Of a stretch of DNA of 64,000 nucleotides, positions 50,299-58,012 are shown one piece after another (position 1 is the first letter of the stretch; the number at the start of each line of letters is the position of its first letter). A program made the translations under genes and the position numbers. This DNA is from Spirochaetaceae bacterium (lineage in GTDB: Bacteria > Spirochaetota > Spirochaetia > Treponematales > Treponemataceae), in the NCBI GenBank assembly GCA_017614995.1, contig JAGAAX010000050.1:1-64000 (forward strand). The letters are read 5' to 3'. Below the pieces are notes generated by a model that saw nothing but the letters and a program-made list of their open reading frames with translations, made no database searches and was not told the DNA's origin.

Positions 50299-51603
50299 AT
50301 GAGCCAATGGAAAAAAGTAAAAATAGACTTTAAAACAATAAAACTCGGAGATTATATTGAACCAATAAAGACAACTGTCGCTGAAAAGAATATGAAAGAT
50401 CCAGTTGTATATGGAGTCACAAATAAAGAAGGAATAGTACAAACTGGGAAACCTGTTAGTAAAGATATTTCAAATTATATTGTATTAGAAGAGAATTGTT
50501 TTGCGTTTAATCCATATCGAATAAATGTTGGGTCTATTGGTATTAATGACAACAATTTAACAGGTTGCGTAAGTCCTGCATATGTTGTTTTTAAAACAAA
50601 AAATGGTCTTTTACCTAAATTCCTATTTTTCTATTTGAAAAGTGATTATGGAAATCATCTGATTAATTGGTACGGAAACAGAGGTGGTGTTAGAAATGCC
50701 CTTAGATATTCTGATTTATGTAATATAGATATTCCTGATATAAGAAATATTAATCAAGAATTATTACTTAAGAAATTTTCTTCCGTTTCAGAAACAATTA
50801 ATCAAATTAATCTGGAACTCGAAATACAAAAAACATATATTAAGCAACTCCGCCAGAACATTCTGCAAGATGCTATAGAAGGAAAACTCACCGTCGACTG
50901 GAGAAAATCGCACCCCGTAATCAAAGGCAATCCCGACTACGATGCAAAAGCATTGTTTGAGAAAATACAGAAAGAAAATGGTTATGACATATCGAAAATA
51001 AATAAAACAGGATATGGTTGGTGTTCTTCAATACTAGGAAATTTTGTAAAACTAAAAATAGGTGGAACACCCTCAAGAAATAATCCTGAGTACTGGAAAA
51101 GAGAAATTCCTTGGGTTAGTAGCGGAGAAGTTGCAAATTGTGAAATATTTTCTACTAAGGAACAGATTTCAATAACAGGATCAGAAAATTCCGCTGCTAA
51201 AATTTTGCCAAAAGGAACTGTTTTAATTGCAATGATTGGACAAGGTAAGACTAGAGGACAATCTGCAATATTACGAATTGAAGCTGCCACTAATCAAAAT
51301 GTATGTGCTGTATTATTACCAAACCAGTTAATAAAAAGTGAATACATGTATTTATATTTTTGTTCAAGGTATGAAGAAAGCCGTAAGGTTGCAACAGGTG
51401 GAAATCAGGCAGCATTAAGTGGAACAAAGATTAGTCAATTTGTATTTTCATTACCCCCTCTCGCTGAACAAGAAGAAATTGTTGCTCGTGTAGAAAAACA
51501 ACTACAGAAAATCTCTGAACTTGAAGCACAAATCACCGAACGAGAAACATACATAAAACAATTAATGCAAAGCATATTAAAAGATGCTTTTGAGGAGAGA
51601 TAA
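50299..51603 (+). CDS. hsdS: Type I restriction-modification specificity subunit
   Basis: 434 residues with two target-recognition domains (~10-160 and ~240-385), each followed by a coiled-coil conserved region. The first ends TYIKQLRQNILQDAIEGKL, the second TYIKQLMQSILKDAFEER, an internal repeat typical of HsdS. It binds DNA and joins HsdM and HsdR. It starts 3 bases after the PIN gene, so it is co-transcribed with the embedded module. Confidence 0.95.
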   Translation: MSQWKKVKIDFKTIKLGDYIEPIKTTVAEKNMKDPVVYGVTNKEGIVQTGKPVSKDISNYIVLEENCFAFNPYRINVGSIGINDNNLTGCVSPAYVVFKTKNGLLPKFLFFYLKSDYGNHLINWYGNRGGVRNALRYSDLCNIDIPDIRNINQELLLKKFSSVSETINQINLELEIQKTYIKQLRQNILQDAIEGKLTVDWRKSHPVIKGNPDYDAKALFEKIQKENGYDISKINKTGYGWCSSILGNFVKLKIGGTPSRNNPEYWKREIPWVSSGEVANCEIFSTKEQISITGSENSAAKILPKGTVLIAMIGQGKTRGQSAILRIEAATNQNVCAVLLPNQLIKSEYMYLYFCSRYEESRKVATGGNQAALSGTKISQFVFSLPPLAEQEEIVARVEKQLQKISELEAQITERETYIKQLMQSILKDAFEER

Positions 51604-51605
51604 TC

Positions 51606-51840
51606 GAACTATTTCCATTTTGGAAATAGTTCACAAGATACCAACTACCGAGAAATCCTCGGTAGTTCAAATCAGTTACCGAGAAAAACTCGGAAACTGA
51701 ACTTAAAATGAGTTATTCGAAATTTTCGAATAACTGAACTATTAAAAAAATTTTATTAGTTCAAAACGCCAAATTGACGTTTTAGATGACGTTTTGGGGT
51801 GTTGCGGGGTGTCCCCGCTAGAAGGGGAAGGCTTTCCCCT
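51606..51840. repeat. Array of about eight consecutive different hairpins
   Basis: Perfect or near-perfect stems follow one another: 51606-51632 (GAACTATTTCC), 51643-51667 (AACTACCGAG), 51672-51700 (TCAGTTACCGAG, one mismatch), 51711-51735 (AGTTATTCGAA), 51736-51762 (GAACTATTAAAA, one mismatch), 51763-51783 (AAAACG, weak), 51804-51818 (GCGGGG), 51823-51840 (AGGGGAA). The first five share GAACTA/AGTTA-like ends. It fills the hsdS-hsdM gap. No spacer regularity as in CRISPR and no attC core sites. Confidence 0.85.
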
Positions 51841-51872
51841 CCCAAATGAAAGGAAAATAGGAGACAACAAAA

Positions 51873-53360
51873 ATGTCAAACATATCAGGAATCATAAAAA
51901 CACTACAGAACATCATGCGAAAAGATCAGGGCGTTTCCGGTGATGCACAGTGCATTGAGCAGCTTGGCTGGATGATTTCTCTCAAAATTCTGGATGACAA
52001 AGATGCCGAGATGGAGCTTTTGAACGATGATTATGTTTCTGTGATTCCTGAAAAGTTGCGCTGGAGGTCTTGGGCTGGTGACAGTGAGGGCATTCGCGAG
52101 TTTGCATAGCAAACTCGTAACGAGAAAATGCAAAGCATTTTCTCGCGTGATGCTATGAAGGAGTTTGTGGACGGGGAGCTTCTTCCTGGTTTGCAAAATC
52201 TTGATGTTTCTGATGGTAACGATGGCGTAAACAGGCGTGCGGTTCTTGTTCGTGATATTTTTGCGGGCACTAACAACTACATGAAGAATGGTACGATTAT
52301 CCGCCAGGTTGTGAACAAGCTGAATGAGATTGATTTTAATGCCAGCGAAGACCGTCATACATTCGGCGATATTTACGAGAGCCTTTTGCGTGATTTGCAG
52401 AGTGCGGGTAACTACGGTGAGTTTTACACTCCGCGCGCTGTTACGGAAATAATGACTGAGATTATTAATCCTCGTCTTGGAGAAAAGGTGCTTGACCCTG
52501 CCTGTGGTACGGGTGGATTTTTGACGAGTGCGATTGAAAATATCAGAAAGCAGGATGTTCATTCGGTTGAAGATTTAAAGACTCTTGAAAGTACAATCCG
52601 CGGACAGGAGCTTAAGCCGCTTCCTTTTATGCTTTGCGTAACGAATCTGATTCTGCATGATATTGAAGTTCCGAATGTAATAAACGCCGACAGCCTGAAC
52701 CGCGAGTATACAAGCATTGGCGCTAAAGACAGAGTTGATGTAATCCTTGCGAATCCGCCTTTTGGTGCGAGTGTAAGCGATGGTGTTGAAACTAATTATC
52801 CAGCTCAGTTCCGTACTACAGAAAGTGCTGATTTGTTCCTGCTTTTGATGATTCGTTATCTTCGTGATGGTGGTCGCGCCGCAATTGTTTTGCCTGACGG
52901 TTCTTTGACTGGCGACGGCGTAAAGCAGAGAATCCGCGAGGAGTTTTTGAAGCAGTGCAATGTTCATACTATTGTGCGTTTGCCGAACTCGGTTTTCCAG
53001 CCATATGCTAGTGTTGCGACAAATCTTTTGTTCTTTACAAAAGGCGAACCGACCCGCGAAATCTGGTATTGGGAACACAAACTGCCAGAAGACCAGAAAT
53101 CATATTCTAAGACAAAGCCGATTCAAAAGAACGAGTTTGCTTCACTTAAGGAATGGTGGGGCAAGCGGGCCGAAAACGAACAGGCTTGGCGAGTTCCAGT
53201 TGAACGTATTGCAGAAAGCGGCTGGAATCTTGATATAAAAAATCCATTTGTAAAAGAAGAGGAAGTTACTCATACTACTGCGGAACTGCTTGATATGCTG
53301 AGTGCGTCGTTTAAGAAAAGTGATGAGTTAATTGAAGAGTTGCGGGATGGTTTGAAGTAA
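51873..53360 (+). pseudogene. hsdM: Type I restriction-modification M subunit, interrupted by TAG in a hairpin insertion
   Basis: The frame runs from the ATG at 51873 (AGGAG site) to TAA at 53360, 495 codons, with one TAG at 52107-52109. The first 78 codons are the HsdM N-terminal helices (MSNISGIIKTLQNIMRK). After the stop come the methyltransferase motifs DPACGTGG and ILANPPFGAS. Removing 48 bases (52095-52142) restores EGISRDAMKEFVDGEL, which matches the family's EGITGDELLDFVNN spacing exactly. An ATG at 52128 could restart the C-terminal 410 residues. Confidence 0.85.
52095..52145. repeat. Two-hairpin insertion inside hsdM
   Basis: CGAGTTTGC-ATA-GCAAACTCG (52097-52117) and CGAGAAAATGC-AAA-GCATTTTCTCG (52121-52145) are perfect stems. 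CGCGAG and CTCGCG outside can also pair, giving a cloverleaf like that at 7919. The TAG lies in the loop and stem top of the first hairpin. Confidence 0.85.
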
Positions 53361-57886: not shown

Positions 57887-58012
57887 GGCATCTCTAAAAA
57901 CTCACTATCGTGACTTTTTAGAGATTGCCGCCGAGTTGTAAATCGCTAAAATGGCGCGATTTACAACATCGCATTTTCAAAGTTACCTCTAAAAACTGAA
58001 GTTTTTAGAGGT
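57887..58012. repeat. Array of three hairpins between convergent genes
   Basis: Stems are GGCA-TCTCTAAAAA-C-TCAC pairing with GTGACTTTTTAGAGATTGCC (57887-57929, one mismatch and a bulge), GTTGTAAATCGC/GCGATTTACAAC (57935-57967) and ACCTCTAAAAAC/GTTTTTAGAGGT around TGAA (57985-58012). The first and third share CTCTAAAAA, so they look like copies. No long T run, so not ordinary terminators alone. Confidence 0.8.

Follow-up and report, generated by a model that had tools for sequence, protein, structure and literature searches.

The Hairpin Array between hsdS and hsdM

The window analyzed here, that is, the whole stretch of 64,000 nucleotides, belongs to a draft genome of 3.05 Mb (G000), which has Treponema among its relatives. 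It includes a type I restriction locus in which the hsdS gene (50299–51603, plus strand; Pfam PF01420) is followed by the hsdM gene (51873–53360, plus strand; PF02384 at 52128–53357), and the space between them holds an array of near-contiguous stems, denoted H1–H8 (51606–51840; 235 bp). The initial annotation described a dense run of hairpins at a density far above chance, and both points are confirmed by the present analysis. The stems stand back to back from 51606 to 51839, and the array is the peak of stem density in the whole 64-kb window. The segment 51580–51860 folds, as RNA, at −106.3 kcal/mol, against −58.3 ± 5.1 kcal/mol in 200 dinucleotide shuffles (z −9.4), and its reverse strand folds at z −11.3. 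Four stems with a score of at least 8 are found in 51606–51840, against a mean of 0.084 (maximum 1) in 500 shuffles, which makes strong stems some fifty times commoner in the array than in the shuffled sequences.

The array is also distinct from CRISPR, attC sites, and ordinary terminators, as had been proposed. Its units differ in sequence and are separated by spacers of at most about 10 nt, which is not the arrangement of a CRISPR, and intrinsic terminators are absent from the plus strand, while the minus strand has three weak sites, formed by units followed by weak T-runs, which lie against the direction of the genes. A scan of positions 51300–52000 for consensus promoters returned no excess over chance, although the promoters of spirochaetes may differ from the consensus.

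Other palindromes are found in the same genome. In hsdM, an insert at 52097–52145 contains two adjacent hairpins, CGAGTTTGC..GCAAACTCG and CGAGAAAATGC..GCATTTTCTCG, separated by TAA, and brings in an in-frame TAG at 52107, besides which no other stop was seen in this gene. This pair of hairpins is also present at the same site in the genome G001, where one stem is one base shorter on both arms, and similar pairs are found elsewhere in the hsdM of G015 and, apparently, G005. The hairpins of this pair are either recent inserts or elements that are skipped in expression. At 57890–58012 of the window, the gap between convergent genes contains a pair of strong hairpins that resemble each other (ATCTCTAAAAACTC..AGAGAT and ACCTCTAAAAACTG..AGAGGT) and lie about 60 bp apart. 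On contig 10 of G000 (L086, 16756–16937), five near-identical palindromes, AATCGTAATCATTACGATT, are arranged in tandem with a spacing of 40–41 bp and a central base that flips between C and G, and three further loci (L080, L083, and L093) contain palindromes, of the form GTCATTNNCGGGCTTGACCCGNNAATC, that are dispersed and often occur in pairs; these are REP-like and show compensated variation in their stems.

Composition of the Array

The eight stems do not form a single series, but are of three kinds, that is, H1–H5, H6, and H7–H8. The first five (51606–51761) make up one family of near-perfect palindromes of 25 bp (H1, H2, and H5) or 27 bp (H3 and H4), in which the outer arms are constant (AACT..AGTT or CAGTT..AACTG), the centre is 5 nt long, and the inner half-sites vary. 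The related ends that had been observed in these five stems proved to be meaningful; the stems share GAACT, AACT, or CAGTT on one side, and AGTT(C) or AACTG on the other.

The palindrome of H1 (51606–51632; 25-mer at 51607–51631), AACTATTTCC-ATTTT-GGAAATAGTT, has the half-site TTTCC, which is predicted for a RhuM protein with an ISKH helix, and its 25-mer is identical to one found within a RhuM gene of G058 (L255, GVGIPAISKHLKN). In H2 (51643–51667), AACTACCGAG-AAATC-CTCGGTAGTT, the half-site is CCGAG, predicted for a DNIxLH helix, and the 25-mer recurs unchanged in a RhuM gene of G328 (L621, GCTSDNISLHLKN). The same half-site, with one A-A mismatch, is found in H3 (51672–51700), CAGTTACCGAG-AAAAA-CTCGGAAACTG, which is of the 27-bp type and may be compared with CAGTTACCGAGGATTCCTCGGCAACTG in the rhuM of L103. 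The core of H4 (51710–51736), AGTTATTCGAAATTTTCGAATAACT, has the half-site TTCGA, with GAGTT replacing CAGTT on one side. Over 26 nt, this unit recurs exactly on another contig of G000, in the palindrome coded within a rhuM gene (G000:C52:90035) whose protein has the helix ETNTINYH. This was the only further copy recovered when the array was searched against G000, and of the RhuM proteins found in this genome, only this one fits a unit, as the other has a different palindrome. The last member, H5 (51737–51761), AACTATTAAAAAAATTTTATTAGTT, has the half-site TTAAA, is imperfect at one pair, and is followed by TTCAAAA, as in rhuM; it is comparable to AACTATTAAAAATTTTTTAATAGTTCAAAA of L266 and L267 (helix DVA[GN]INYH). 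All five half-sites (TTTCC, CCGAG, CCGAG, TTCGA, and TTAAA) are thus also present in rhuM genes, and this set would correspond to at least four types of RhuM helix. A repeat-forming process, as suggested initially, is possible, but the different types of unit match different rhuM genes and are not copies of one another.

The remaining stems are of other origins. H6 (51763–51795) contains no RhuM-type palindrome, but is a remnant of the segment that lies between rhuM and hsdM in the relatives, and it aligns to the sequence that comes directly after the stop codon of rhuM in both G001 and G098. H6 represents the former 3' flank of a rhuM gene that has since been lost. H7–H8 (51804–51839) is a GC-rich repeat, GCGGGGTGTCCCCGC..GGGGAAGGCTTTCCCC, which is dispersed in the Treponemataceae and sits upstream of rhuM in G001, a genome of the same genus. 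When the array was used as a query, 146 of the 245 genomes of the family were matched, nearly always through this part.

The Palindrome within rhuM Genes

Nearly all the rhuM genes (PF13310) of the family hold one palindrome of 25–27 bp at a fixed site, about 15 codons past the codons of the HTH helix and ahead of the YNLDAIIxVGYRV motif. The same palindrome is found in a wider set of rhuM genes, from Fibrobacter, Firmicutes, Proteobacteria, Bacteroidota, and plasmids. The peptides that it encodes are wholly different (SKME, SILE, TEDSS, RKFR, ANFA, KKFF, and KNFL), while the DNA is still palindromic. Among 1620 synonymous recodings of the same peptides, 36 gave a best stem score of at least 10, a value reached by 55 of the 81 rhuM genes themselves. 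In the 79 distinct arms, 740 of the 790 cells are Watson-Crick pairs, against 382 ± 11 when shuffled, with up to four types of pair at a given position, and a shift of one to three bases in the partner arm abolishes the pairing. It is as DNA, then, and through compensating substitutions, that the palindrome is maintained. The mismatches include 15 G.U and 12 A.C, and the two are equally common, which is what a site in double-stranded DNA would show, rather than an RNA stem. In addition, one asymmetric centre is found both ways round, CCAAAATGG and CCATTTTGG, in genes with a single type of helix (both ISKH), which indicates that it is the DNA arms that are conserved, and not the residues.

The surroundings of the rhuM genes showed no excess of sites of their own type, with five found against 14 expected from a control with foreign types, which speaks against a classical upstream (autoregulatory) operator. 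The exchange of cassettes between close rhuM genes was also considered and rejected, as cassettes are always at least 94% identical where the flanks are more than 80–85% identical, with no swapping. Within a single rhuM coding sequence (L121, 1440–1479), palindromes of the RhuM type stand in tandem (SVAEDSSATAEESSAV), as if duplicated in frame, and at a rhuM locus of the Clostridia (L181), a palindrome similar to TGAACTTTAAGGTCCGTCCCTAAAGTTCA has four dispersed copies around the gene (1803, 1859, 2925, and 4057).

A palindrome within the gene was also observed in the DUF1016/YhcG nuclease genes of eight loci (L036, L114, L309, L319, L333, L335, L338, and L339), where it precedes LSWSH and usually has the centre ACANTGT. 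All eight score 7–13, against mostly 4–6 in synonymous recodings, and these genes often adjoin type I restriction genes; they may represent a second family with sites of its own. Similar palindromes are expected in ORF6N genes, and a motif scan of the gathered loci found no genes of this family.

Coupling of the Half-Site with the Recognition Helix

In 130 rhuM genes, the similarity of the half-site follows that of the recognition helix, 12 residues long, with an r of 0.68 and, when the C-terminal part is controlled for, a partial r of 0.70, whereas the partial correlation with the rest of the protein is −0.24. None of 2000 permutations, which ignore phylogeny, reached the observed value or exceeded 0.075. 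When the segments of the protein were entered together in a regression, it was the helix alone that accounted for the half-site, with an R2 of 0.50 that dropped to 0.07 on its removal. Among pairs of proteins with C-termini less than 55% identical, at least six of the seven positions of the half-site are shared in 96% of those with helices 70–85% alike, but in only 0.1% of those with helices 25–40% alike. The joint inheritance of close codons could add to this correlation, although segments that lie nearer to the site do not show it. Almost no signal is found in the 14 residues before the helix, the 12-residue linker between the helix and the site, or the residues past the site. The mutual information with the half-site, calculated per position in 61 RhuM sequences less than 70% identical, has its peaks (z 10–18) at positions −8, −7, −5, −4, and −1, counted from the invariant His53, and none in the segments before, between, or after.

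An AlphaFold2 model of RhuM (pLDDT 80.6) places these coupled residues at the start (N-terminus) of the second HTH helix, and a strand encoded by the palindrome comes next. Among solved folds, the nearest is that of DdrC, a DNA-binding protein of Deinococcus radiodurans, with a VIA Z of 8.2 over 211 residues and an rmsd of 13.5 (Z 7.7 and rmsd 4.0 over 97 residues for the N-terminal domain of RhuM alone), although the identity is 7–9%, and a Z near 8 may reflect just a common arrangement. A sequence search of the PDB with the RhuM profile recovered no relative, and the NCBIfam models returned no more than hints of HTH regulators, all below threshold. The protein does match the PADLOC candidate models PDC-S05, which makes a role in conflict plausible, albeit unproven.

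These observations bear on the second suggestion of the initial annotation, that of an RNA with an unusual fold. The array may be transcribed and act through its hairpins, in attenuation or stability, or as an RNA partner of RhuM, as in the arrays of type III toxin-antitoxin systems, and this would account for the very low folding energy of both strands and the weak T-runs that follow three of the units on the minus strand. But the two strands fold equally, G.U pairs are not favoured over A.C mismatches, and the half-site is coupled to the recognition helix of a DNA-binding protein, while no Rfam family scores above its gathering threshold at the array, the only matches within the window being tRNAs. 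Given that the palindromes are conserved as DNA, an RNA structure is very improbable.

Distribution in Relatives and Other Spirochaetota

A rhuM gene occupies the position of the array, between hsdS and hsdM, in five relatives (G001, G029, G210, G118, and G098), and truncated pieces of rhuM with edges at or near the palindrome are found in three others (G193, G109, and G175). The array itself has a homolog in G240, which follows a different accessory gene and has four units. In an alignment of the two arrays, the spacers and outer arms match, while the inner half-sites are changed on both sides, from TTCGA in G000 to TTCGG in G240, and from TTAAA to a degenerate GTCGG type. Among 274 genomes of the family, no such array was found beyond these two, which are the only noncoding arrays known in the Treponemataceae, both in draft assemblies. 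Single sites do occur in the genomes of the family, and in G014 one of these is found upstream of an hsdR-like gene, at a distance of some 80 bp.

A search of 392 Spirochaetota genomes that started from the patterns of H1 and H2 recovered 21 sites, of which 17 are inside RhuM genes. Of the helices that could be read in these genes, those paired with CCGAG were DNIxLH-like, and those paired with TTTCC were ISKH. Two of the other four sites were those of the window itself. Control patterns, read backward, gave no sites in the same genomes.

The distribution in the relatives is an argument for the main alternative reading, in which successive rhuM genes entered the gap between hsdS and hsdM and were then deleted down to their palindromes, which would persist as end points of deletion or through repair against themselves. 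In addition to the complete and truncated genes described above, this reading is supported by H6, as the former 3' flank of rhuM, and by the rhuM-like bases (TTCAAA) that some units retain. It explains less readily why the palindromes alone remain, with arms that are near-perfect, and why the half-sites of G000 and G240 differ symmetrically while the spacers match, and it leaves unexplained the 158 viral contexts in which the fetched locus has no RhuM ORF. The symmetric changes in G240, together with these phage sites, favour the use of the sites over their persistence as relics, which we consider unlikely to be the origin of the array.

Sites in Viruses and Plasmids

Exact matches to the patterns of the units are found in viral contigs, in at least 120 stretches for H2, at least 88 for H1, and at least 41 for H4, whereas H1 patterns of the same composition, with the outer or inner arms scrambled, had no viral matches. 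Among the matches listed, there are 180 independent viral contexts, with one group of 12 sites that represents a single conserved phage gene being counted once; these numbers imply no enrichment of viruses over bacteria. Twenty-two are in RhuM ORFs, and about 158 are outside, the sequence fetched for the latter containing no RhuM ORF. Further stems are present within 120 bp in 18 of the 158 contexts, compared with 15 of the 707 windows used as a control (p 2e-6), and several of these neighbouring stems are of another RhuM type, so that mixed arrays are not peculiar to the window. The initial annotation had named the lack of similar arrays elsewhere as an outcome that would refute it; such arrays exist, both at the same locus in G240 and as mixed clusters in phage contigs.

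In annotated phages and plasmids, the sites are located in spacers or within ORFs, and some phage sites of the TTTCC type encode linkers rich in Gln, Asn, and Gly in SSB. In the SSB gene of a Streptococcus pneumoniae phage (L614, 801–854), for example, palindromes of the form TTTCCATTTTGGAAA are repeated in such a linker, and these are possibly either a coincidence of codon usage or sites of the RhuM type.

Of the sites that lie in frame within unrelated phage proteins, most (31 of 43 and 24 of 31) are read in the same phase as in rhuM. This is a feature that might be expected of selfish mobile palindromes, of the REP or Rickettsia palindromic element kind, which would insert in genes and spacers, rhuM included, and have no role in binding; the occurrence of the sites in clusters, and the several other families of dispersed palindromes in G000, are also compatible with such elements. 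On the other hand, the number of copies is one or a few per genome, the site is at the same position in rhuM from one phylum to another, and the half-site tracks the recognition helix, which a selfish insert would not do. This source is, then, distinctly unlikely.

A Putative Cluster of RhuM Binding Sites

Given that the same palindrome is found in the rhuM genes, and that the half-site is predicted by the recognition helix, H1–H5 are probably clustered sites in double-stranded DNA to which RhuM proteins, of at least four specificities, would bind. The simplest reading of the sequences is that each RhuM would bind the palindrome in its own gene. The protein, with an N-terminal winged helix-turn-helix, would bind as a symmetric dimer to a palindrome of 25–27 bp, in which the outer arms (AACT..AGTT) would be common to the family and the recognition helix would read the inner half-site. 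About 15 codons past those of the helix, each rhuM gene would bear its own cognate site, and the array in the window would be a collection of such sites, gathered without the genes, at a place where relatives carry rhuM.

As to their function, the sites most likely act in trans on RhuM proteins. It is quite possible, though short of probable, that they titrate or placate incoming RhuM proteins, while a role as operators, through which RhuM would control transcription into hsdM, is a weaker possibility. A broader proposal, which we offer tentatively and consider rather doubtful, is that RhuM is a sequence-specific defence or conflict family that carries a self site in its gene, and that the mixed arrays, in phages and at the present locus, have evolved as immunity or decoy arrays that neutralize several RhuM specificities simultaneously.

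Some known systems resemble the array in part. RptR is a small HTH dimer encoded at type I restriction loci, where it acts as a repressor by binding short palindromes that occur in series (PMC12255303), and a series of palindromes at a locus of this type is also what is found here. The sites of RptR are 6-bp palindromes, arranged as direct repeats of one promoter (PMC12255303), whereas those of the array are 25–27 bp long and of mixed specificity; a cognate site inside the gene of the protein itself is a feature of RhuM, unlike RptR, and the paper that describes RptR makes no mention of RhuM (PMC12255303). The REP/BIME elements, which are mobilised in many copies per genome by a TnpA-REP (RAYT) protein, and the Rickettsia palindromic elements are also dispersed palindromes, sometimes clustered and sometimes in frame within genes, although the RhuM-type sites differ from them in their low copy number, fixed outer arms, and inner half-sites that match the helix of a protein, as well as in their constant position in one gene family across phyla. 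A further resemblance is to the RhuM family (PF13310; PDC-S05) itself, in that the units of the array are equivalent to the palindromes within its genes and that relatives carry rhuM at this position, although the locus in the window has no RhuM gene. In the literature searched, there was no description of a DNA site for RhuM, of cognate palindromes within genes, of mixed arrays, or of a link between RhuM and palindromes, and the sequences of the units appeared only in papers with unrelated titles.

Through this reading, RhuM, a widespread candidate family of phage defence, gains a testable DNA target and a recognition code that can be read from the sequence. The sites span the interiors of genes, the genomes of phages, and mixed arrays, which are places where operators would not be sought. 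If the arrays neutralize RhuM, they would represent a new kind of DNA-encoded counter-defence, and if they are operators, RhuM would be tied to the control of type I restriction. The findings point to an unrecognized interplay between the RhuM proteins and mobile DNA.
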